NCBI GenBank assembly: GCA_002686085.1
Contig: NZAC01000053.1
Location: forward strand, 1-64,000
Source: Roseibacillus sp.
GTDB taxonomy: Bacteria > Verrucomicrobiota > Verrucomicrobiia > Verrucomicrobiales > Akkermansiaceae
Direction: 5' to 3'
DNA: 64,000 nucleotides
The translations under genes and the position numbers were made by a program. The notes under the pieces were generated by a model that saw nothing but the letters and a program-made list of their open reading frames with translations, did no database searches and was not told the origin of the DNA. Shown here piece after piece: positions 45,015-57,757 of this stretch; the first letter of the stretch is position 1, and the number at the start of each line of letters is the position of its first letter.

Positions 45015-46292
45015 TCAGGCGAGAAGCCCCTTCAAGGGCCCTGTGCTGTCAGCGAATTTCTGCATGCCCGTTCCCATGAGCTGCGCCTGCGAGAGCCACA
45101 GGTTGGCAAGCGGGGTTTTCTCCGAACAGTTGAGAACGCGACCGGTCTTAATCTTACCGTTCGCAGAACCCGCTACGATAATGGGCAGCTCATCCATCGT
45201 GTGGTCCTTTCCATCTCCAAGTCCCGATCCGAGAGTGATCATGGAATGATCCAGAAGCGTGCCCTCGCCTTCCTGAATTGCGTCCAGCTGTTCAAGAACT
45301 TCAGCGAAGAGCTCCACATAGAACCGGTCCACCTGCACCAGAGCCCTCTTTACGTCGTCTCTTCCCTGAGAGTGCGTGAGCCCATGATGCGACTTCGTGA
45401 AATTCAATTCATGGAAACGCTGTGGCGTCCCCCACCTTTCCGGTGCAAGCATGAAGGTAGCGACATGGGTGAGGTCTCCCTGGAAAGCGAGAACGAGCAA
45501 TTTACCCATCATCCGGATGTACTCCCCCCGCGTCATGGGCACATCATCGGGTTCTTTCATGTCCGCTCGCTCATACATCGCGTAGTGCTTGGTGAGCTTC
45601 TCAATCTGTTTTTCCACCTCTCTGACGGACGTGAAGTACTCATCCATCTTATCCTTATCTTCACGTCCCAGAGCTCTCTCAAAATTTGCAGCATCCTCCA
45701 GAATTAAATCCGTGATATCCTTTTCCGATTTTCCTGTCCTGAACAATCGTCGATAGACCTTTCGTGGATCCTTCATCGAAGTTGCCACGTGCTCTGGGCC
45801 ATACCATGAAATGTTATCTAGATAGATCGACTCTCTGAGATCCTTAAACGTGTTACAGTTCAACTCGAGGGAGCGGATGGGCGTGCGATGACTGACCTTG
45901 TCCGCAATGAGGTGATCGAGAGTCCTGTCCATCGGATAGGGCGATTTGAGTTCACCATAGGGGTTGGCCGAGGACAGGTAGCAAGAACTACATTGATTAT
46001 GCACGTCAATCCCTCTCACGTTCACCCGATAGAGTCCTGTGATCAGTGTCACTTTGTCCGCGACGCTCTGGAGCGGCTTCAAGGTTGGCATCGAAAGGAA
46101 ATCGTCACTATCTTCGCCCGGAAAGAAATGATCTCTCACAAAGCCCATGGGCGAATAGAAGGAGGCGAACCGGAGAGAAGGCTCTTTCACTTTCCGGGTT
46201 GAAGGCTCTTCTGCATGCAATTCGAGCCACGGCAGAGCCATCATACTTCCACCTGCTCCGAATAAGAACTTCCGTCGATCCATCTGTTTCAT
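45015..46292 (-). CDS. DUF1552 family Tat-exported protein (pair C)
   Basis: The protein has 425 residues. The Tat motif is Asp-Arg-Arg-Lys-Phe-Leu-Phe-Gly, followed by a short hydrophobic segment. Family motifs match pair B closely: Asp-Val-His-Asn-Gln-Cys-Ser-Ser-Cys-Tyr, Pro-Met-Asp-Arg-Thr-Leu-Asp-His, Ser-His-His-Gly-Leu-Thr-His and Ser-Gly-Leu-Gly-Asp-Gly. B and C are clearly paralogues. The start overlaps the upstream DUF1592-type stop by 4 bp (ATGA), and an in-frame ATG also occurs three codons later. Function unknown, as for the family. Confidence 0.92.
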   Translation of the reverse strand: MKQMDRRKFLFGAGGSMMALPWLELHAEEPSTRKVKEPSLRFASFYSPMGFVRDHFFPGEDSDDFLSMPTLKPLQSVADKVTLITGLYRVNVRGIDVHNQCSSCYLSSANPYGELKSPYPMDRTLDHLIADKVSHRTPIRSLELNCNTFKDLRESIYLDNISWYGPEHVATSMKDPRKVYRRLFRTGKSEKDITDLILEDAANFERALGREDKDKMDEYFTSVREVEKQIEKLTKHYAMYERADMKEPDDVPMTRGEYIRMMGKLLVLAFQGDLTHVATFMLAPERWGTPQRFHELNFTKSHHGLTHSQGRDDVKRALVQVDRFYVELFAEVLEQLDAIQEGEGTLLDHSMITLGSGLGDGKDHTMDELPIIVAGSANGKIKTGRVLNCSEKTPLANLWLSQAQLMGTGMQKFADSTGPLKGLLA

Positions 46293-48979
46293 CGTTGTCT
46301 CCTTTGGCTGAATATTGGGTGAAGCACTGTGTGCTTGATCAGGTTTCTCAATTTGTAGTCATCCTCGCTGCCGGCTCTGGCAATTTCATCTACAGCGATG
46401 CGGTCTGCCAGCGTCATCTCACGCCCCAGACCAAAGGAAAGCAGATGCTTGACGAAGGCCTTGGCAAACAGGTCCCTCTCAGCGAGCACCGCATCCTTAA
46501 AGCCGACCACATCCTTGAAATCATGTTTGCCGAATAATGTGCCACTGGCGTCCACTTTCAAGCCAGTTCGATAGTTATCTCGCCAACGACCCAGCAAATC
46601 GAAGTTTTCGAGGGCAAATCCGAGGGGATCAATCTTGTTGTGACAGCCTGCGCACTGGGAGTCTTCGCTGTGCTGCTTCAACTTCTGCCTCACGGTCAGG
46701 CCCTCTTTTTCCAAGGTGGAATCATCCGCTTTCAAGTCAGGGATATCATCAGGCGGGGGCTCGGGTGGATCATTAAATATAACCGAGGAGACCCAGGAGC
46801 CCCGGGTGATGGGCAAGGATCGGAATGGCCCCGAGGTCATCACCATCACCGCCCCGGTTGTAATCACTCCACCATATCTTCTATCGCTAACCGGCGTACG
46901 AGTGAATTCAATATCACGGAGATTCACGTTGATCGGGTAGGTGGCCGCCCTGCCCTGATACCACTCGCTCAGCAGGTGACTGCGATAGGTGAAGTCCGAA
47001 TCGATCAGCTCCATGATGGGCCTGTTTTCAATAAAGACCGTTTCAAAATTCAGAAGTGGCTCCAGCATCATGTGCATCCCCCGCTTGTAGGATATCTTGT
47101 CGTCGCCTCCAAAATAGTACTCCCGGTGGGCCTTGAAGTCAGGAGAGGCAGATACCAGATTATTAATCTTCAGCCATTGAGGGGCAAAGCTATCACAGAA
47201 GTTTTTCACTCGCCGGTCGTTGAGCATACGGTCGACCTGGCCTGCGAGAACCTCCGGATCCTCCAGCTTGCCCTCTCCGGCCAGTGCCAGCAACTCGTCA
47301 TCAGGGATCGAACTCCAAAGGAAAAAGGACAGGCGGGTCGCCAGATTATACGCATCGTAATTTGGCGAGGAGCGATTGGCCTCGTCATGCACCATGATGA
47401 ATCGTGGAGATGCCAAGGCTCCTGAGACAACATCCTTCATGCTCATGGTGAAGTCACCAGTCGCCTTGTATTTTCTGTCAAAATACCCCGTGTAAAGTCG
47501 CAGGGTGGCTGCATCCGGGGGAGACCTGAAGGCTCTGAGAAGAAACTTTCGGATGCGTTCATGTGCAACCTTTTCGACCGGTTGCTTCCTTTCGGTCCTG
47601 ACCTCCTCGGCGCGCTTCCAGCTGCCAACTAACTCCTTGAGGGCCACATTCTGGTCACCTGCCGCGATCTTCTCGATCTCAGGCTTCCCCAAGCCAGAGC
47701 GGAAGACCCGCACGTCATTGAGATCTCCATGAAAAGGCTCGTCCCCGGAGGAGCCGATCTCCATCGGCTTCAGGCTCCTCGTATAAAGACTTCCCGTAAC
47801 CTTCTTGGCCCCAACCTGCTTGCCATCGACGTAGATCGTCATCTGACTGCCATCGAAAGTACCAGCAACGTGGTGCCATTTTCCATCACGAAGAACCTTA
47901 GGCTCCACCGAAGCACCAAATTCGACATAGCTCCCCCCGATACCTGCTCCCATCCAGATGCCCCACGTTCCATCCGTGCCACCCATGGCCAGCAACTGGC
48001 GTTTCCACGAATCCTCCCGCCGCACAATGGTTTGCCACTTCTCGGTCGTCTTCGAAGGCCGGATCCACGCACTGAGTGTCAACCCAGTGCTGCTGGTCAC
48101 CACGGAATTATCGACCATGATAGAGCCAAACCCCACGGGCAGGGGATCCTTGGACGGATCTTGAAACAGGTCATTCCAAGTTTGGCAGTTTTTATCAAAA
48201 TTATCAGCATTCACAACCGAGCGGCTAAGCTCGAGAAAGGCCTCCATCAGCACGGGTGTCATGCTGAGGTGATCCCCCCTGTTATTGAAGCCATTCTCCG
48301 CAGGAGGATCCTTGGGAAAAGCCATTACCCCCAGCAACCGATTCTCCAACAACTGCTGTAACCCCATGATCCGGTTTCCCACTCTCGCAACCTTCGGCAT
48401 TTTCCCTGTCTCAGGTCTGAAGTAATTATTGTGGTCTCGAATAATACGGTCATTGATCGAGTAGACCCATGACTTGAGATCAAACAGGTCCCTAACCGCG
48501 TTGCCATACTCAAAACGATTCATCCGCCGGAGGCGCAGCGGCGTGACCGATTGACGATGTGTCATGGCACTCTTGAAAGCCTTTTCCAGTCCCAGCAACA
48601 TCGCCTCACGCTGGGTAGCAGTGGGCTGCTTCGAGTCTTCGGGAGGCATTTCATTTTTTCCGATGACCTCGATTAAATTTTCGATGAGCTCCGGGTTCTT
48701 CTCCAGATCTTCCCATGATTTGTAAGGCGTCAAATCGACCTTCCCCTTTGTTTTTTCCCGCCCGTGACAATCATGACAATGTTGCTCGAGCAAGGCCCCG
48801 ACCCCCATAGAAAAGTTTGATGCGCTGGCTGAGGGTTCCAGGGCTCTTCCCGGAAAACTAATTGCCAAAGAAAGCAGTACAATGATTCTGATTACTGCCC
48901 GAAAATTACATTTCTGCAACCGTCCGGCCGGACTCCTTCCGGTAGCGACCGGAGAGGAAAAGCTGCAGGAATGACTCAT
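46289..48979 (-). CDS. DUF1587/1592/1588/1585 protein with inserted LamG domain (pair C)
   Basis: From the ATG at 48979 the protein has 896 residues, about 200 more than its paralogue in pair B. The haem-type motifs are His-Cys-His-Asp-Cys-His-Gly near the N-terminus and Gln-Cys-Ala-Gly-Cys-His-Asn-Lys-Ile-Asp-Pro-Leu-Gly in DUF1588. DUF1587 starts at Arg-Arg-Met-Asn-Arg-Phe-Glu-Tyr. Between the DUF1587 part and the next conserved helix lies a LamG/concanavalin-like domain. It is recognisable by Leu-Ser-Ala-Trp-Ile-Arg-Pro, Trp-His-His-Val-Ala-Gly-Thr-Phe-Asp-Gly, Tyr-Val-Asp-Gly-Lys and Asp-Val-Arg-Val-Phe-Arg. LamG domains bind carbohydrates or proteins, so this one may target the protein to a glycan. 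The N-terminus has a basic stretch before the hydrophobic signal core (about residues 30-45). Confidence 0.9.
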   Translation of the reverse strand: MSHSCSFSSPVATGRSPAGRLQKCNFRAVIRIIVLLSLAISFPGRALEPSASASNFSMGVGALLEQHCHDCHGREKTKGKVDLTPYKSWEDLEKNPELIENLIEVIGKNEMPPEDSKQPTATQREAMLLGLEKAFKSAMTHRQSVTPLRLRRMNRFEYGNAVRDLFDLKSWVYSINDRIIRDHNNYFRPETGKMPKVARVGNRIMGLQQLLENRLLGVMAFPKDPPAENGFNNRGDHLSMTPVLMEAFLELSRSVVNADNFDKNCQTWNDLFQDPSKDPLPVGFGSIMVDNSVVTSSTGLTLSAWIRPSKTTEKWQTIVRREDSWKRQLLAMGGTDGTWGIWMGAGIGGSYVEFGASVEPKVLRDGKWHHVAGTFDGSQMTIYVDGKQVGAKKVTGSLYTRSLKPMEIGSSGDEPFHGDLNDVRVFRSGLGKPEIEKIAAGDQNVALKELVGSWKRAEEVRTERKQPVEKVAHERIRKFLLRAFRSPPDAATLRLYTGYFDRKYKATGDFTMSMKDVVSGALASPRFIMVHDEANRSSPNYDAYNLATRLSFFLWSSIPDDELLALAGEGKLEDPEVLAGQVDRMLNDRRVKNFCDSFAPQWLKINNLVSASPDFKAHREYYFGGDDKISYKRGMHMMLEPLLNFETVFIENRPIMELIDSDFTYRSHLLSEWYQGRAATYPINVNLRDIEFTRTPVSDRRYGGVITTGAVMVMTSGPFRSLPITRGSWVSSVIFNDPPEPPPDDIPDLKADDSTLEKEGLTVRQKLKQHSEDSQCAGCHNKIDPLGFALENFDLLGRWRDNYRTGLKVDASGTLFGKHDFKDVVGFKDAVLAERDLFAKAFVKHLLSFGLGREMTLADRIAVDEIARAGSEDDYKLRNLIKHTVLHPIFSQRRQR

Positions 48980-49105
48980 CGTCCTATTCGACCGGGGATT
49001 CCAAAATTCTGCAAGCCACAAGATAAACCGGATCAGGCGACCTCAACCTTTTCAAGTTCAGGAGCCCGACAAACAATCCGCATCGGAACACGGTCTTTAT
49101 AGACT

Positions 49106-51082
49106 CTATTGCGAATCTTCTGAAAGCAATGCGGTAGCAGGAAGAGCCTTCAACTCGGTATTCGGTCCTTGCCACTTGAAACTGAGCTCCGGCTTGCCCG
49201 ACGACGTCCGGTAATAAAGACGATAGGGATGAATACCCTTCGCCAGCCTCACCGTCCCACTGATGGGAGCTCCCTCATATTGATAGTCCCCATCGATCAC
49301 CAGCTTGTTATGGATCTTGAAGATGAGCCCGCCCGTGGCCTCGCCCTCGAAGGTCCAGTCTCCCGCTTCCGGAATCCGCAGGTAGCCGGAGAACAGCAAC
49401 CCGGCATCCTCTTGTGCGAGAAGCGGATCGAGACTGATGGTCTCTGTCAGAGAGGTGGTCTTGGCGGCCATCGCGGTGAAGTCGGGCACCCAGTTCCATT
49501 TTCCCAGAAAGGACCGCACGCGCACTCCTTTGCGCAGGATCCCTGCATCGAGATCCAGTCCGGGAACAAATTCGTCATCATAGGCCTTCTTGGCATGCCT
49601 GTTCGGCATCCGAAGCCGAAGAACCTCATCCTTCATGCGCTGCTGCAGGCGCTTGAATTTGTCGCTGCTACCCGCGAGGTTCTGGGCTTCCGGCTCATCT
49701 TCAACGGTATCATAAATCTCAAAGTCCACCGAGTGATTCGTGGCCTTGAGTCGCAGGCCCTTGTATCCGTCCAGGTAGAGCCCCTGCTGGTTGTTGAACT
49801 CCACGTAGACAACCCCATCCCTTTGCCTGCCCTTCTGGCTGAGGGTTGGACGAAGGGAAACTCCATCGATCCTCGCTGGCGTGTCGACTCCGGCGTAGTC
49901 ACAGAAAGTAGCCATCCAATCGTGAAACTGAGAGGGTCGGTTCGACTTTTGGCCCCCCTTGATGATCGAGGGACCCCACGCAAAGGTGGGCACCCGCAGA
50001 CCGCCCTCATGAGAAGACCCCTTTGATCCCTTGAAGTTACCCGCCGATTCAAAGACTGTGGGGCTCCACCGTTTTCCCTTCAGGTAGGACTCTCGATGCG
50101 GACCGTTATCCGAGGAGAAGACCACGATGGTCTTCCGGTCGATCTTGAGATCCCTCAGCGTTTGCAAGAGATCCCCTACGCAGTGATCGATCCGGGTGAT
50201 CGAGGTTGCAAAGCGCTCCGCCAGATCCGTCAGGCCCTTTCCGGTGTAATGAGGATCCCGATAGTCATCGATGGTTCCCTCCGCGGTATTGATCATTTTT
50301 CCCGGCTTTCCCAGCCACTGGATCCCACCCTTGACGCCCTTTCCGGCGGGATAGGCCACCGTGGGCAACTGCAGGGCGGCATGGGGCGTATCGTAGGAAA
50401 GGAACATGAAGAACGGACGCCCGGGGTTCTGCCGGGTCTCGCTGATGATCAATTGCTTGGCCTTGGCCGTCCATAAGTCGGTGGTGTAACACTTGTCGAG
50501 GCCCGCCGAGACCTCCTTGTTGTTTTCCCAAACCTGCTTTTTGCCCTGATGGGACTTGTTGTCCCCGAGAGCCCACTCATTGGCGGGATAATGCTGATGC
50601 CCGTCTACGTGCCGGACATAGCCGTAGAAGTAGTCAAAGCCCCGCTTGGTCGGATAGCCGGCCCATTTCTCCGGGGTATGCCCCCAACCCTGCAGGCCAT
50701 ACTTCCCGAGATGGATGGTGTGATACCCGACCCGCTGCAGGGTATTGGCAAAATTCCAGTTATCCTCAATCGCCTTATCGAACTGCATGTTGCGCACATT
50801 AGTGTGCCCTTGATGCATCCCCGTGATCAGGGAGGCTCGGGAGGGCGCGCAGATCGGAGCCGGACAGTAATGCCGGTTCAGGATCGTTCCCTCCGCGGCC
50901 ATTGCGTCCAATTCGGGAGTCTCAACCTGAATTCCTTCCCGCTGCTTTTGGAAGAGAATTCCTACATCTCCGTATCCAAGGTCATCTGTCAGAATGAAAA
51001 TAATGTTAGGCTTCCCTGCGGAGACAATTGGGGAGGCCACCGTCAGAAGAGTCAGGATTCCTGAAGCAAGTCGCGTTCTCAT
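49106..51082 (-). CDS. Secreted arylsulfatase-type sulfatase with PA14-like C-terminal domain
   Basis: From the ATG at 51082 the protein has 658 residues and a signal peptide (1-22, ending Ile-Val-Ser-Ala); starts at 51103 and 51124 are possible but give poorer signals. The active-site motif is Cys78-Ala-Pro-Ser-Arg, with Asp-Asp in Leu-Thr-Asp-Asp-Leu-Gly-Tyr-Gly-Asp and Ser-Ser-Asp-Asn-Gly-Pro-His for calcium. This is the arylsulfatase A-like branch, different from the two other sulfatases. A C-terminal PA14-like domain (about 555-645) has Gly-Asp-Trp-Thr-Phe-Glu-Gly, His-Pro-Tyr-Arg-Leu-Tyr-Tyr and Leu-Ser-Phe-Lys-Trp-Gln-Gly. It probably binds the sulfated glycan. Confidence 0.92.
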   Translation of the reverse strand: MRTRLASGILTLLTVASPIVSAGKPNIIFILTDDLGYGDVGILFQKQREGIQVETPELDAMAAEGTILNRHYCPAPICAPSRASLITGMHQGHTNVRNMQFDKAIEDNWNFANTLQRVGYHTIHLGKYGLQGWGHTPEKWAGYPTKRGFDYFYGYVRHVDGHQHYPANEWALGDNKSHQGKKQVWENNKEVSAGLDKCYTTDLWTAKAKQLIISETRQNPGRPFFMFLSYDTPHAALQLPTVAYPAGKGVKGGIQWLGKPGKMINTAEGTIDDYRDPHYTGKGLTDLAERFATSITRIDHCVGDLLQTLRDLKIDRKTIVVFSSDNGPHRESYLKGKRWSPTVFESAGNFKGSKGSSHEGGLRVPTFAWGPSIIKGGQKSNRPSQFHDWMATFCDYAGVDTPARIDGVSLRPTLSQKGRQRDGVVYVEFNNQQGLYLDGYKGLRLKATNHSVDFEIYDTVEDEPEAQNLAGSSDKFKRLQQRMKDEVLRLRMPNRHAKKAYDDEFVPGLDLDAGILRKGVRVRSFLGKWNWVPDFTAMAAKTTSLTETISLDPLLAQEDAGLLFSGYLRIPEAGDWTFEGEATGGLIFKIHNKLVIDGDYQYEGAPISGTVRLAKGIHPYRLYYRTSSGKPELSFKWQGPNTELKALPATALLSEDSQ

Positions 51083-51397
51083 ATATTGTTTCGTGGCTTC
51101 CATGAGAGATGGTCTATAACGCACAGCAACTCACAAGGCGACCTTGGCTGCGATTCCTGTGAAATCGCTCCATCGAATAGGGAATCAGATAATTCACTAC
51201 CCGGATATTTACCGGGATTGGGGCAGGGTTTTCATCCGCCTCCGACCGCCGCCTCACCTGATTGAGTAGTATTGAACTCCCTGTCATTACCCATCTTTCA
51301 ACGACTGCATGTATCCCAGCAACCCTGTATTTCGCTTCCCTTTCAGAATTCTTGACCTCGCTCAGCACAGCGGGAACGATTCTGTCTGACCATATTT
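51083..51397. promoter_or_regulatory. 315-bp divergent promoter region
   Basis: This gap separates the minus-strand sulfatase from the plus-strand LemA-type gene. A candidate sigma70 promoter for the latter has TTGACC at 51352-51357 and AACGAT at 51375-51380, with a 17-bp spacer. It would leave only about ten bases of leader before the ATG at 51398, which makes it doubtful. A CCGGG-type inverted repeat lies near 51200. No small gene is convincing. Confidence 0.35.
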
Positions 51398-54055
51398 ATG
51401 GACAAAGAGGGATCTACAGCACCAAGAGGGTCTGCCACCGAACGGAAAGCCCCGGAATCTGGCCCCCCGCCTCTGCCTGATGAGGCTGCAGTCCTTGCAA
51501 CAAGTGATGGCGTGGTATCATTCGGTCCAGTGGTAGGCGGGAAACAGACGGTTACAGTCACCGACGAGTATACCGGCCAATCCGTGGATCACCCGGTTCC
51601 GAAAGATCGCACATTGGTTGTCGTTGAGGGCGAACCAATCAGGCAAGGCGATCAAATCACTGAAGGTCCCTCCATTGGGGAAACCGCGACACCATACAAA
51701 AGTGAGGGCGGTTCTATTAAGCGGTTCTTTAAGCGCTTTTTCGGTTGGCTCCTCATTCTCGTGGCTCTTGTCGGCGGATGGGTTCTCCAGCACTATGGAT
51801 TCGCTGCGATTCGGGAGATGCGTCAGCTTGAACGAATCCCCCATGTGGATGCGATCGCTGTCGTAGAGGGCGAGGTAGCGATGAACGGGATCGCCAGTGA
51901 TGAAGGGGAGATGGTGCCCGGCCATTATACCGATAGAAGAAGTTACTACCTTTACTGGAAAAAGGAAGAATACGTCGAGGATGATGACGATGGGCATTGG
52001 GTAACCCGTGCCTCCGGGACGGAGTATGCGAAGTCCTTCATGATGATCGACTCCACCGGAGAGGTTTCCGTATCGCTGGAGTCTCTGATCACCAACGGCC
52101 ATCATCCGGAATTAGGCCTCGATTACCGGAGAAGATCAGGAGATTTCAGATACTCTGAATACAGACTCGATCCCGGGGACGAGGTTTTCGTCTTTGCCAA
52201 GGCGGTAGCCACGGAAGGCACTCCCGAAGACTCGCAAACACCCCCTTATCAGATCGAGTTCGACGATGAGGGAGCTTCATTCACCCCGATCTTCAGTCAG
52301 AATAGTAGCGAACAAGCGCAGAGGTCCGAACAGGGAGCCGCGGGAGTAATGGCCACTATTCTGAGTTTGGCTGCCTTTGCCCTCGCCTCCGTATTTCTCT
52401 GTGTGTTCCTACGCGTCCACCGCCTGCTGGTATTTCTTACCCTTCTTAGCATCCTCAATGTTGTCACATTGTTCATGATTGGCATGAAGATGCTGTCCAG
52501 CGACCTGAATGATGGAGGGGACCGGCTGGCGAGGCACGCCGTGAGTGCAACCGCCGCCGTGGAACAGCAATTAAATCTTGAAGCAGGAGACTTCGACTGG
52601 GACGGGGCCCTTGCCGATTTCCAAGGTCAGGAGGACCAGTGGACTCGCGAGCGCCTGATCGGAATTCGCCACGACTACACCGCCGCGATCGAACGTAACA
52701 ACGCTATCCTTAACCGGTTCCCTGAGCGCTATCTTGCACCTCTCTGGGGCATTCAACGGGAGGCCTCCATTCTTGAGGAAGGAGAACCTCCACCTCCTGA
52801 CTCCGAGATCCGTCCCAGTCCCGTTCCAGAAATACTGACTCTGTTAGGTGGGATCATCGCTCTCGGTGGAGCCATCTGGGGAGGCCTTACAGGGTTCCGG
52901 AGGGTGAAAATCAAACGCTATATCGAGAACGTCCCAACTTCTCTGTCAACGGGCCTGGTCTACGGTCCAGCGGAAGTAAAGGGCCGGGTCGCGCTCTACC
53001 AAGGAGAGGGTCACACGGTGACCGGGCCTCTTTCCGGTGCGAAATGCTGTCACGTGCGCTACAAAGTTACCGAAACGCGGGGCAGTGGTGATGACCGGAA
53101 AACTGTGACCATCGAGCATTGGACGGACCAGGTCCCTTTCCTCTGCCGTGACGCTGAGGGTTACATCCGGGTAGTTCCGGAAGGTGCAGAGGTTCAGGCT
53201 CGGCTTGCAGTGCGTCGAACAAGCGGCAATCGAACCTACTACGAGTATCACCTCATGGAGGATGAAGAGCTCTACATTCTTGGTTCGGCCGTAGTGGAAC
53301 CCATTGAAGGAGAGACTCTCGAGGTAGCGGATGGCAACAACGACGGATTCCCCTTTGTCATCTCCGATCGCAACGAACATGAAACCATGCTGGCCATCAG
53401 TAGAGGGGGGCTCGTACGAATGGGCCTTGGATTCATCGGAATCGTGATGCTTGTCACCCTCTTTTTTACCTCTACGGGCTCTTACTCCCCCAGTGACTTT
53501 CTCCTGGCAGCTCTTACCGCCCCCGCCTGTCTGGTCTTAAGCACGTTTATCCTGATGTTTAACGATCTGGTGTTTCTTCGCAACCGGGTCAAACGTGCCC
53601 ACGCCAATATCGAGGTTGCCCTGAAGAAGCGAATGGACCTGATCCCAAACCTTGAATCGATAGCCAAAACTTATCTTGAGCACGAAAGGCAGCTCCACCG
53701 GGACATTGCCAGCCTGCGAGGGATCCTGAAGGAAAGGGACTTCAGTCCAGAACAAATCGATACTGCCATCCGGGCTGATTGCGCAGTGACTGAGCGACTT
53801 CTTGCTCTCCGCGAGAATCATCCCGACCTCAAGGGTAATACGGTCATGGGTGATCTCATGGACCGGCTGATCCGGGTCGAGAATGAAATCGCTCTCATGC
53901 GGGAGGGCTACAATGACAGCGTGGAGCTCTACCGATCCGGGGCTCAAAGATTCCCCGAAGTCCTCCTCGCCAAGACCTTTGCCTTCAAGGACGCCGATCT
54001 TCTCCGGGCCGAGCTGGAGGTTCGTCAGGTGCCCCAGGTCAGCATGGCCACCTGA
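51398..54055 (+). CDS. Membrane protein: beta-prime-like domain + GIDE/BAM-like + LemA
   Basis: The protein has 885 residues. A Pro-rich N-terminus leads to a domain at about 33-92 that closely resembles a C-terminal part of RNA polymerase beta-prime. It shows Gly-Val-Val-Ser-Phe-Gly, then Val-Pro-Lys-Asp-Arg-Thr-Leu-Val-Val-Val-Glu-Gly-Glu and Gly-Asp-Gln-Ile-Thr-Glu-Gly-Pro. A membrane helix follows (115-131), then a beta domain (145-290), two helices (325-375) and a loop. After another helix (about 500-520) comes a GIDE/BAM-like domain (540-660; Val-Lys-Gly-Arg-Val-Ala-Leu-Tyr, later Cys-Cys-His-Val-Arg-Tyr), then helices (670-725). A LemA domain (730-885) has Ala-Asn-Ile-Glu-Val-Ala-Leu-Lys-Lys-Arg-Met-Asp-Leu-Ile-Pro-Asn. 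LemA/GIDE proteins are known in bacteria; their role is unclear. Confidence 0.85.
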   Translation: MDKEGSTAPRGSATERKAPESGPPPLPDEAAVLATSDGVVSFGPVVGGKQTVTVTDEYTGQSVDHPVPKDRTLVVVEGEPIRQGDQITEGPSIGETATPYKSEGGSIKRFFKRFFGWLLILVALVGGWVLQHYGFAAIREMRQLERIPHVDAIAVVEGEVAMNGIASDEGEMVPGHYTDRRSYYLYWKKEEYVEDDDDGHWVTRASGTEYAKSFMMIDSTGEVSVSLESLITNGHHPELGLDYRRRSGDFRYSEYRLDPGDEVFVFAKAVATEGTPEDSQTPPYQIEFDDEGASFTPIFSQNSSEQAQRSEQGAAGVMATILSLAAFALASVFLCVFLRVHRLLVFLTLLSILNVVTLFMIGMKMLSSDLNDGGDRLARHAVSATAAVEQQLNLEAGDFDWDGALADFQGQEDQWTRERLIGIRHDYTAAIERNNAILNRFPERYLAPLWGIQREASILEEGEPPPPDSEIRPSPVPEILTLLGGIIALGGAIWGGLTGFRRVKIKRYIENVPTSLSTGLVYGPAEVKGRVALYQGEGHTVTGPLSGAKCCHVRYKVTETRGSGDDRKTVTIEHWTDQVPFLCRDAEGYIRVVPEGAEVQARLAVRRTSGNRTYYEYHLMEDEELYILGSAVVEPIEGETLEVADGNNDGFPFVISDRNEHETMLAISRGGLVRMGLGFIGIVMLVTLFFTSTGSYSPSDFLLAALTAPACLVLSTFILMFNDLVFLRNRVKRAHANIEVALKKRMDLIPNLESIAKTYLEHERQLHRDIASLRGILKERDFSPEQIDTAIRADCAVTERLLALRENHPDLKGNTVMGDLMDRLIRVENEIALMREGYNDSVELYRSGAQRFPEVLLAKTFAFKDADLLRAELEVRQVPQVSMAT

Positions 54056-54167
54056 ACCCGGTCTCTCTCCCCTCCAGCAAAGACAATGGAATTCTCCCAT
54101 CAAGGTAGCACCCTGAGAACTCTCCTTGCCCGGTGAGGCTCTCTCGCCTAAGCACCTCCGCGAACTC

Positions 54168-56279
54168 ATGAAGGTCCTTAGCCAATCCACGCTCATCCTC
54201 TTCCTTCTCGCTTCCGGACCACTAGGCGTAGCCCAGCAGCCCGACCCCTTTCCTACTCCGGGAGAAATCACTAATATTACCGGCGGAGCAAAACCGTTCT
54301 TTGAAATATGGGACGAAGACAACGTTTATGGCGTTCTCGATGTCGCCATGGATGGAACAGTTCTCATGTTCAGCCTTCAAGGCGACCCACACCCCGACAA
54401 ACGCCGTGGCAGTAAAATCTATTTGAAACGATCGGAGGATGGGGGTGCCACCTGGAGCGAAAAACAGCTCATCGGCAAGCCAGTCATCCTCGACGTCGAA
54501 AAACTGGGAATCGGTCCCTACAACGGCAAAGGCTGGGGCAACGACAAACACCACCGGATTGCCAGCCTCGGCACCTCGGTTGTTGATGAGACCACCGGGG
54601 AAATCATGATCTTTCTGACCGCTCTCCACCCAGCCCTTTCGATGTACAAGAGCAGGGATCAAGGCAAAACGTGGGCCCTCGAGGATATTACCTTCAGGAA
54701 GGATTCCCGTGGATTTCTTCCTATACCTAACGGCGCCTGCGATCCCGGGATCACCCTCCGGAGCGGCCCTCACAAGGGCCGGCTCCTCGTGCCCTCCCGG
54801 GTCATGCCCAACTACAGCAAGCAGGAGGAAGGCAAGGGCTACACCAACGCGGTCTACAGCGATGACCATGGAAAGACATGGCACCAGAGTGCTCCCTTTC
54901 CCCTCGATGGCACCGGGGAATCCGGTCTGGTCGAGCTTCGTGATGGCACGATCTACCTCAACTCCCGTACTCACACCCGGAAAGGAAACCGGTGGGTGGC
55001 CTTCAGTGACGATAGCGGAGAAAGCTGGCGCGATCTCCACCAGGACGATGAACTCTTTGACGGTCCTCCCGATGTCTACGGATGTAAAGCCGGGCTCCTT
55101 CGATTGGATCAGGATGACGCTGATATTCTCCTTTTCAGCACCCCCTCCTCTAATCTCCCCGGGCGCAAGAACATCCGGGTCTGGGTCAGTTTCGATGGGG
55201 GGAAAAGCTGGCCTCTCAACCGCCTTATCAAACGTGGGCCTGGCAACTACACGTGGCTGACTCAGGGGCGCAAGGGCACCCCCAGCGAGGGCTTCATCTA
55301 CCTTCTCTCCGGCAAGGACTGGATGGCCCGCTTCAACATGGCCTGGCTCCTCGACGCCGGAGAACCAGAGGTGCTCCTGAGTAAGCGCAGCACCTACCGC
55401 TTCGCGGACCGGGATCTGTTTCATGCTGCCGAGAACACCGAGGCGTTTACCTCCAGCGAGCCACGCATGACAAAGAGTCCACTGGGATATCGTCTGGAAA
55501 AAGGCAGCGTGGAAGGCAGGGTATTGACCCGCCGCTTCGTGCTGCCGTCCGGGAAAATGAAAGTGAGCTATCATGCTCCAGAGGATGCAAGGATTCAGCT
55601 AGCCATTATGGACGACAGCGATAGCCGCCTCCGCGATACCCACGCCCTCACGGGCTCCTACCAGATCGACAAGATCATCGATAACTGGCAGGACGGCCCC
55701 ATCGACGAGTGGGTGGGAAAAACCGTTCAGGTTCAGTTCCAGCTGCACGGGGATGCCGAGATTTTCGGCTTCGCGTTCGACGACGTGTCCACGCCGGGCA
55801 GTGATACCGCCAGTATCGGCTCTTCGGATCACCGCTTTGTCCTTCCCCCACGGTACGAGTATCTCATGGCCCAGAATCCTCCCTTTGTGAGATCCGTGGA
55901 GAACGCGGGCCCTTTCCCGGTCGGAGATAATCAGGCTCCAAAGCATCTGCCTCCGGGGATACGCACGAGTTACCGCCTTGCGGACCAAGATCGGCCGGGC
56001 CACGTCCTTACCAGCAAACTGAGCCTGCCCGGCAGAGAGATGAAGATCTCTTGCCATCCCGGCTCTGGAACCATTACCGTATCCCTTTTTGACGAGAGCG
56101 GCTCTCTCCTCAGCACTAGCAAGCCTCTCCGAGACGGCCTGAAATTGCGCTCGCTCGTGGAATGGACTGAAGGGTTTACCCTCAAAGAATACGTCTCCAA
56201 GCCCGTGACCCTGCGCTTCGAACTCACAGCCGATGCACAGGTCTACGGCCTGCATTTCGATCAGGTCTTCTGGGAATGA
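54168..56279 (+). CDS. Secreted sialidase (BNR/Asp-box)
   Basis: From the ATG at 54168 the protein has 703 residues and a signal peptide ending Val-Ala-Gln-Gln; a TTG at 54126 is unlikely. Five Asp-boxes are visible in the first 400 residues: Ser-Glu-Asp-Gly-Gly-Ala-Thr-Trp, Ser-Arg-Asp-Gln-Gly-Lys-Thr-Trp, Ser-Asp-Asp-His-Gly-Lys-Thr-Trp, Ser-Asp-Asp-Ser-Gly-Glu-Ser-Trp and Ser-Phe-Asp-Gly-Gly-Lys-Ser-Trp. This is the six-bladed propeller of exo-alpha-sialidase-like enzymes. Two related beta domains follow (about 415-535 and 590-703). It would release sialic acid or a similar terminal sugar. The nearby SASA-like esterase supports acylated acidic sugars as the target. Confidence 0.88.
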   Translation: MKVLSQSTLILFLLASGPLGVAQQPDPFPTPGEITNITGGAKPFFEIWDEDNVYGVLDVAMDGTVLMFSLQGDPHPDKRRGSKIYLKRSEDGGATWSEKQLIGKPVILDVEKLGIGPYNGKGWGNDKHHRIASLGTSVVDETTGEIMIFLTALHPALSMYKSRDQGKTWALEDITFRKDSRGFLPIPNGACDPGITLRSGPHKGRLLVPSRVMPNYSKQEEGKGYTNAVYSDDHGKTWHQSAPFPLDGTGESGLVELRDGTIYLNSRTHTRKGNRWVAFSDDSGESWRDLHQDDELFDGPPDVYGCKAGLLRLDQDDADILLFSTPSSNLPGRKNIRVWVSFDGGKSWPLNRLIKRGPGNYTWLTQGRKGTPSEGFIYLLSGKDWMARFNMAWLLDAGEPEVLLSKRSTYRFADRDLFHAAENTEAFTSSEPRMTKSPLGYRLEKGSVEGRVLTRRFVLPSGKMKVSYHAPEDARIQLAIMDDSDSRLRDTHALTGSYQIDKIIDNWQDGPIDEWVGKTVQVQFQLHGDAEIFGFAFDDVSTPGSDTASIGSSDHRFVLPPRYEYLMAQNPPFVRSVENAGPFPVGDNQAPKHLPPGIRTSYRLADQDRPGHVLTSKLSLPGREMKISCHPGSGTITVSLFDESGSLLSTSKPLRDGLKLRSLVEWTEGFTLKEYVSKPVTLRFELTADAQVYGLHFDQVFWE

Positions 56280-56383
56280 GCTGCGCCTCGCTTTCCCTCA
56301 CCTTGTCTACTCCGAGAGAACATCAGCATATCCAGCCCTCATGTGCTCTGCCCTCTTCCTCGAATAGAATTAGGGAGCACCCC

Positions 56384-57757
56384 TCAAGGAGAACGCCGCC
56401 GCCCCTTCGGCTGCAATGATTTGTTCGGCTCAGTCGCGCTGTATTGAATCGCGCCGATATCCCAGTTGCCGGTTTTGGGCAGTGGATTACCATCAAAGTC
56501 TGATGTGTAGAGCTCGCTGAGATTGATCGCTTTGCCACGCAATGGGCTATCTGCCTTCAAATGGTAATCTTGGTTTTCAAGGTCGACAAGACCCGGATCG
56601 CCACTGCCAGCTTGGCTGCTGTCACCCTTATACTTGGTATTGGGGGATTTGTATTTTGAATACCAGTTAGCTGTTTTCAGGGCGCCGCCAGATCGATTGC
56701 CGGTATAAGGAGAGGACGAGTAGATAAACAGATTGTTCCTGAAATGGGCCCCCGAAGGTTTTCCAACGGGGTTCCCTCCCCGGACATCAATCCGGGCACA
56801 GGCGTTTTGGGACCTTCCGAACCCATTGTATCTGGCTATCGTATTGTTATCGAAATAGATGCCCGTGCATGGCGCCAGCATGAACAGCCATGACTGTCCA
56901 TCGTAGCACACATTGAAAGAGACTCTCCAATTATAGATTTCCTGTTGATATCGTGGCCAATCGTAGTCCCAGCTGGATTCAATGAACCCAGCATTACCCT
57001 CCGAATAGTTATGATGAATGTAGATATTTTTCTTATGGTATCTGCCACAATCGATTTCGATCGCGCCCCCGTCTGAGCCCCACGGGCTATCTTTGGTCCC
57101 GAAGTTCTTGATGGTGTTGTATGACACTTCCTGGTTTCCAATGTTTAAGTGAATTCCCATTGGTCCCCAACTGCTTTTTGACGTACGCCACAGTGCATAG
57201 CTCGGGCCATCCAAATAATTCTTGGTTATCAAGGTATGCTCGCCAGCTGACATAATGCCCTGGCCAGTTTTGATGAATTCATTGTTTCGAATAATGCAGT
57301 GATCTGCACCACGATCGATCCGGAGAGCCGCCAGCCTCGTCATGATGATCCTCCCCGAGACGTACTCGCCCGGCGTATCGTGAAAATGCAGGTTTTCTAC
57401 AATGAGATAGTCGCCACTGAGGATTATCGCGTTGCCGCTGGCATCGCGAGTAGTGGGATTGGTGAACTTGGGCAGCTCGCCCGTCCCGTAGGAAGTTAGT
57501 CGTATCGGCTTGTCCGCGGTGCCGGATTCCCTGATCCGAATACTTCCAGAAAAGGTAGACCCCTTCTTGAAGTGGACCACATCTCCTGCTGCAAGTGACG
57601 CTGACTCTACCTTCCTGTGCGACTTCCACGGTGAGCGTGTCGAGAGACCGTCGCTTTGATCTGATCCGTCGACCGAATCGATATAATAATCTGCACCACA
57701 ACATACACCTGACCACAGAAGGAGGTTGCTAATGGTGATTGACCGGAAAAACGTCAT
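56384..57757 (-). CDS. Secreted right-handed parallel beta-helix protein
   Basis: The protein has 457 residues and a signal peptide (about 1-21, ending Val-Cys-Cys-Gly-Ala). The start of the mature part, Tyr-Tyr-Ile-Asp-Ser-Val-Asp-Gly-Ser-Asp, is typical of the opening of secreted pectin-lyase-like beta-helix proteins. Repeated Asn/Ile/Gly ladders follow (His-Cys-Ile-Ile-Arg-Asn-Asn-Glu and Ile-Tyr-Phe-Asp-Asn-Asn-Thr-Ile). Such proteins include polysaccharide lyases and hydrolases; I cannot identify catalytic residues or a family. By eye the gene is AT-richer than its neighbours, which could mean recent acquisition. It converges on the sialidase gene and lies downstream of the SASA-like gene. 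Confidence 0.85.
   Translation of the reverse strand: MTFFRSITISNLLLWSGVCCGADYYIDSVDGSDQSDGLSTRSPWKSHRKVESASLAAGDVVHFKKGSTFSGSIRIRESGTADKPIRLTSYGTGELPKFTNPTTRDASGNAIILSGDYLIVENLHFHDTPGEYVSGRIIMTRLAALRIDRGADHCIIRNNEFIKTGQGIMSAGEHTLITKNYLDGPSYALWRTSKSSWGPMGIHLNIGNQEVSYNTIKNFGTKDSPWGSDGGAIEIDCGRYHKKNIYIHHNYSEGNAGFIESSWDYDWPRYQQEIYNWRVSFNVCYDGQSWLFMLAPCTGIYFDNNTIARYNGFGRSQNACARIDVRGGNPVGKPSGAHFRNNLFIYSSSPYTGNRSGGALKTANWYSKYKSPNTKYKGDSSQAGSGDPGLVDLENQDYHLKADSPLRGKAINLSELYTSDFDGNPLPKTGNWDIGAIQYSATEPNKSLQPKGRRRSP

Follow-up and report, generated by a model that had tools for sequence, protein, structure and literature searches.

The window, the whole stretch of 64,000 nucleotides of Roseibacillus sp. 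DNA that was analysed, carries on its forward strand a gene for a membrane protein of 885 amino acids, referred to here as the carrier. It combines a short segment of the RNA polymerase (RNAP) subunit β' with a body of GIDE and LemA domains, in the following order:

51398..54055, + strand: whole gene, six-TM membrane protein of 885 aa with the order jaw-GIDE-GIDE-LemA (open reading frame; Pfam)
51398..51481, + strand: N-terminal linker, residues 1-28, ending in PPPLP, which also occurs in the jaw-less homologues of genomes G010 and G005
51482..51673, + strand: RNA polymerase β' jaw, residues 29-92 (RpoC alignment, phmmer, Foldseek, tree)
51674..51736, + strand: juxtamembrane linker, residues 93-113, with the basic end KRFFKR (sequence, hydropathy)
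51737..51793, + strand: TM1, residues 114-132 (Kyte-Doolittle 1.78; basic residues on the N-terminal side)
51833..52297, + strand: first GIDE-like domain, residues ~146-300, predicted extracytoplasmic (hhalign; not called by Pfam)
52349..52480, + strand: TM2 and TM3, residues ~318-338 and 343-361 (one merged hydropathy peak; the split is our reading)
52832..52888, + strand: TM4, residues 479-497 (hydropathy; followed by FRRVKIKR)
52931..53407, + strand: second GIDE domain, residues ~512-670, predicted cytoplasmic (Pfam GIDE at 557-661)
53411..53554, + strand: TM5 and TM6, residues 672-690 and 701-719 (hydropathy)
53600..54043, + strand: LemA domain, residues 735-882 (Pfam PF04011, E 5.1e-34)

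The carrier belongs, as an unremarkable member, to a family of LemA/GIDE membrane proteins, domains that the first-pass annotation had also named. With the whole protein as query, both Pfam families scored over their cut-offs (LemA, PF04011, 117.7 bits against 26.2; GIDE, PF12483, 33.8 bits against 23.6, E 3e-8). It differs from the family in that it has two GIDE-like domains and its N-terminal slot is occupied by an RNAP jaw. The first GIDE-like region aligned to the second with an hhalign probability of 97.6 (E 4e-12). One GIDE copy is thus predicted on either side of the membrane, the extracytoplasmic one (51833-52297) being unannotated. Eukaryotic MUL1/GIDE possesses a RING domain and E3 ubiquitin ligase activity; no RING domain was matched by Pfam in the 885-aa protein.

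Basic residues flank the membrane segments (KRFFKR before TM1, FRRVKIKR in the loop after TM4, RNRVKR at the start of LemA), and by the positive-inside rule the N-terminus with the jaw, the Pfam GIDE domain and LemA are predicted to be cytoplasmic. The earlier placement of the segment before the first membrane helix, and probably in the cytoplasm, agrees with this pattern. The genes around the carrier (46289-57757) code for a sulfatase with a PA14 domain and for PSD/PSCyt cytochrome-like, BNR-repeat and beta-helix proteins, a setting of polysaccharide degradation in which the fusion gene has no evident operon partner. A scan for promoters and terminators found none.

Identity of the N-terminal segment

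The RpoC-like stretch comprises residues 29-92 of the carrier. A phmmer search of the PDB with residues 28-101 gave an RpoC as best match (E 1.7e-8), with E. coli RpoC at 1e-7 and 2lmc_B, the isolated E. coli jaw, at 8.4e-7. By blastp the segment aligned without a gap to 63 residues of the RpoC encoded in the same genome, with 38 identities (60%, E 7e-24). The alignment to E. coli RpoC, likewise ungapped, contains 25 identities in 63 positions (38-40%) and places carrier residues 29-91 on E. coli residues 1152-1214. The NCBIfam rpoC model (TIGR02386), searched with the full protein, matched residues 27-90 (E 2e-5).

The first-pass annotation, made from the letters of the sequence, had described an RpoC-like segment at residues of about 33-92 and had estimated about 20 identities over about 52 ungapped positions of E. 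coli RpoC. The segment itself is borne out, its limits being slightly wider than proposed, and the estimated count comes close to the computed one. What had been assigned to a region near the C-terminus of RpoC can be sharpened to exactly the β' jaw, which the tree described below derives from the organism's own genus. Of the profile matches that had been suggested as a check, those to the PDB and to NCBIfam rpoC were obtained, while the Pfam search of the carrier gave no match of RNA_pol_Rpb1_5 (PF04998) to the fused segment. This missing match is uninformative, since the isolated true jaws of the genome's own RpoC and of E. coli RpoC miss the model too. In Pfam these true jaws match no RNA polymerase model over cut-off, and jaw fusions would therefore escape routine annotation. 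The rest of RpoC with its catalytic core is not found in the carrier, and the sole PF04998 locus in the genome is the true rpoC on contig 21. We consider it almost certain that the fused segment is a true jaw derived from rpoC.

The limits of the segment coincide with those of the E. coli fragment 1153-1213, which folds on its own into a four-stranded sheet, is sufficient to bind the T7 protein Gp2 and binds duplex DNA weakly, in the micromolar to millimolar range, while R1174 of the E. coli jaw is required for DNA cross-linking (James et al. 2012; PMC3778932). By sequence the fused jaw and the E. coli jaw (PDB 2LMC) are the same domain with the same boundaries, aligned without gaps; the fused jaw differs in being off RNAP and tethered to the membrane, and in having lost the arginine that contacts DNA as well as a large part of the basic surface.

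Two AlphaFold models of the jaw, made from an alignment of only the five near-identical orthologues, have low confidence (mean pLDDT 56.3 and 67.1) and five main strands each. A scan of viral contigs for a deeper structure alignment returned one match, which was of no use. Foldseek searches of the PDB with both low-confidence models found RNAP β' in essentially all matches listed; 2lmc was third, with probabilities of 0.98 and 1.00, a TM-score of 0.57 by target length and an rmsd of 5.8-5.9. No match had an E-value below 0.001, and rmsd values were mostly 5-6 Å. Since Foldseek scores include the amino-acid sequence, this fold evidence is not independent of sequence, and the result is consistent with a jaw fold and no proof of it. 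The 60% ungapped identity makes a jaw fold reasonable to assume.

Probable donor and distribution of the fused jaw

In a tree of 63 alignment columns calculated without E. coli, the five fusion jaws grouped together (support 100) as sister group to genus-crown RpoC sequences, that of the same genome among them (UFBoot 94), and this pair was nested in successively larger clades of the genus (85 and 84). With E. coli included, E. coli grouped with the fusion jaws (76), yet both attached inside the genus; we read this grouping as long-branch attraction, and the tree was redone without E. coli. The motifs FGP, TDE and SVDH are common to genus-crown RpoC and the fusion, and most other family members differ in at least one of them. 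Since the fused jaws are nested in the RpoC clade of the genus, the most likely donor is the lineage's own rpoC. The fused copy has diverged by ~40%; the RpoC jaws of the genus crown are still 98-100% identical to each other.

The fusion is present in five of the 15 genomes of the genus, representing five species, with 92-97% identity over the whole protein. Besides the genome analysed here, these are the MAGs UBA4145, UBA5689, cluster2_bin.90 and NP58 (Roseibacillus sp. / Akkermansiaceae). Flanking regions are collinear over up to 13 kb among the fusion-bearing MAGs, and the occurrence of the fusion with collinear flanks in four other MAGs rules out an assembly chimera. The LemA/GIDE body without a jaw occurs in G010, G005 and G006, and in G056 of another family; in G004 the N-terminus of the protein lies off the contig. 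Among the genus genomes (G000-G014) the LemA/GIDE gene is clear in eight of 15 and present as a fragment in G006, while the G010 locus is unrelated. This patchiness and the unrelated locus suggest loss or gene transfer. In the family as a whole, the body was found in 10 of 260 genomes, and the LemA/GIDE membrane family in eight of 388 sampled genomes of the phylum.

Searches of two overlapping samples, 387 genomes of the order and 388 of the phylum, detected no further jaw outside RpoC, with second matches inspected in a subset. A second jaw match was frequent in Akkermansiaceae genomes; 24 of those with more than one match were followed up, and the second matches were nearly all an internal repeat of RpoC, apart from two rpoC fragments. 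This repeat lies ~100 residues upstream of the jaw in the RpoC of family genomes (e.g. G028:C21:129968-130093) and resembles it weakly (~35% identity), as a trace of the β' barrel-sandwich hybrid repeats. One very weak second match occurred in G213. Apart from one weak match in G708, second matches in the phylum were due to an rpoC split over two contigs (G672) or to jaw-less GIDE-like relatives. In phage and plasmid collections, all matches were to host-type rpoC or lay in unannotated places, with identities of 32-40%.

A variable slot before the first membrane helix

A search of other LemA/GIDE proteins for the same N-terminus, proposed in the first-pass annotation, found the jaw only in the five species; the remaining proteins have a zinc finger or nothing at this place. 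Distant homologues of the same family and of other classes (L066, L067, L119, L121, L122 and L135-L138) bear at the N-terminus, in the jaw slot, a zinc finger of the C2HC or CxxC/CxxC type, for example MKPYICSKCHRKIPREEIRVHLETSC and CNRCG...CGLC. Pfam matched these fingers weakly (E 0.006-0.04), with likeness to UBZ and TRAF-type fingers. In L066, L067 and L135-L138 the order of parts is that of the carrier (N-terminal cytoplasmic module, TM1, GIDE-like domain, TMs, GIDE, LemA), except that a C2HC/CxxC zinc finger replaces the jaw and some have a C-terminal tail of ~250 aa. The N-terminal slot is thus variable and holds a zinc finger, a jaw or nothing. The extra tail of ~250 residues after LemA belongs to L135-L138 (G433, G692, G440 and G560; other classes); its main part had no Pfam match, and it may resemble the TerB-like tail of some M48 peptidases.

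Constraint and residue changes in the jaw

Compared with the genome's own rpoC, synonymous sites of the fused jaw are saturated (pS 0.91) at a pN of 0.23; part of this divergence may predate the fusion, and the contrast is therefore only suggestive. Among the five orthologues the jaw has undergone 11 synonymous and 12 non-synonymous changes, corresponding to an omega of ~0.42, which differs from neutrality at P 0.034 (one binomial test on few changes). Outside the jaw omega is ~0.19, and the second GIDE domain is the most constrained part of the protein (0.04). With this value the jaw ranks with the least constrained regions of the carrier, although its difference from the rest is not significant (P 0.12), and slow decay is conceivable. 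Six turn glycines invariant in RpoC (38, 43, 48, 78, 84 and 90) are retained in the fused jaw, as are the inward valines of the TVTVT strand in the core. The sequences thus point to moderate purifying selection on a fast-evolving jaw, which is likely to be a retained folded module.

Position 1174 (E. coli numbering) is Thr in all five fusion jaws, Lys in the own RpoC and Arg in E. coli; Gly replaces Arg at 1170, and 1189 is Pro, Gln or Thr. Four basic residues are left, compared with seven in the own RpoC (7-9 across RpoC jaws), and the net charge shifts from -4 in the own RpoC jaw to about -6. The loss of the DNA-contact arginine together with three basic residues argues against an RNAP-like role at DNA. 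A re-used fold or a mimic that binds proteins, both close to what the first-pass annotation had offered, would be conceivable. On the face known for Gp2 and DNA contacts, the changes relative to the own RpoC include K1158T, K1174T, I1176T and L1189P/Q/T; changes are not significantly enriched there (6 of 10 positions against 18 of 53 elsewhere, P 0.16).

Discussion

To our knowledge, neither an RNAP jaw joined to a membrane protein nor any other re-use of pieces of the universal multisubunit RNA polymerase as modules in unrelated membrane proteins has been reported. A search of the literature, covering a minority of the subscription journals, turned up no example. Each component is familiar; what appears to be new is the way they are combined, and the uptake of a domain that derives from the cell's own rpoC.

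We propose that a copy of the rpoC fragment coding for exactly the β' jaw entered the gene of a six-TM LemA/GIDE protein in frame, within the part for the N-terminal cytoplasmic linker, and that the jaw was thereafter kept as a folded cytoplasmic module beside the membrane. The jaw would serve the GIDE/LemA body as a docking module, holding or sensing a partner protein in the cytoplasm, at the place where distant homologues bear a zinc finger, and would have ceased to act as a DNA-channel element. Since R1174 is replaced by Thr in all five species and the basic residues have decreased from seven to four, a docking module is favoured over a DNA binder. The cytoplasmic side, the autonomous folding and the protein partner of the jaw are parts that we infer, and the proposal as a whole is tentative, with a probability that we put a little below one half.

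A chance event that placed rpoC sequence in frame within a disordered, tolerant linker, where it is held only by a weak constraint against misfolding and has no function of its own, would fit the variable and often empty slot (G010, G005, G006 and G056), the high omega of the jaw and its rapid departure from a donor that hardly varies within the genus crown. Against such a passenger speak the precise domain boundaries, the intact state of the jaw in all five species, the retention of glycines and core despite saturated synonymous divergence and an omega below 1 (P 0.034). We regard this explanation as rather unlikely.

The tethered jaw could instead be a mimic of the cell's own polymerase, a decoy that catches or senses a factor targeting the jaw, such as a Gp2-like phage inhibitor, and relays or blocks the attack. 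T7 Gp2 binds to the β' jaw, and the jaw in isolation suffices for this binding (PMC3778932). The copy stems from the self rpoC, occurs patchily in five of 15 genus genomes and evolves faster than the rest of the protein, though not significantly; a decoy would need no DNA binding, in keeping with the lost basic residues. However, several residues of the Gp2/DNA face are altered, making the fused jaw a poor imitation of it, and the Gp2-critical glutamates E1158 and E1188 are K and H even in the RpoC of the genus. Moreover, the carrier had no match to a known defence family in PADLOC, and no defence genes were found among the immediate neighbours scanned. A decoy role in this general sense is unlikely in our view. 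Its fuller version, a membrane-anchored integrated decoy that traps a phage or cellular attacker of the jaw and thereby triggers a LemA/GIDE membrane effector, is distinctly doubtful. Integrated decoys are found in plant and fungal NLR immune receptors, and the carrier resembles them in that a copy of a self-protein domain is fused to a receptor-like protein; the likeness is an analogy only.

A role of the jaw as a tether that binds duplex DNA near the membrane and so links nucleoid or transcription to the envelope would draw on the weak DNA binding of the isolated E. coli jaw (PMC3778932) and on the zinc finger in the same slot of homologues, but the substitutions of R1174 by Thr in all five jaws and of R1170 by Gly, together with the more negative charge, make it very improbable. 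A chance or convergent likeness to a barrel-sandwich hybrid, to which a weak match in Pfam, to the C-terminal domain of cytochrome f, might point, or an assembly chimera can practically be dismissed, since true RpoC jaws yield the same weak match, the 60% ungapped identity is nested within the RpoC of the genus and the fusion is found in five species from separate MAGs.

From the sequence of the fusion one can read the donor, the precise limits of the copied piece and the way it has changed, with the domain kept and the DNA contacts lost. If the integrated-decoy version were true, the carrier would represent the bacterial equivalent of plant immune receptors with integrated decoys. The finding reveals a variable N-terminal slot in the uncharacterised LemA/GIDE family, and the fusion offers a jaw that nature has detached from RNAP and placed at the membrane, so that its capacity to act as decoy or adaptor outside RNAP can be tested directly.
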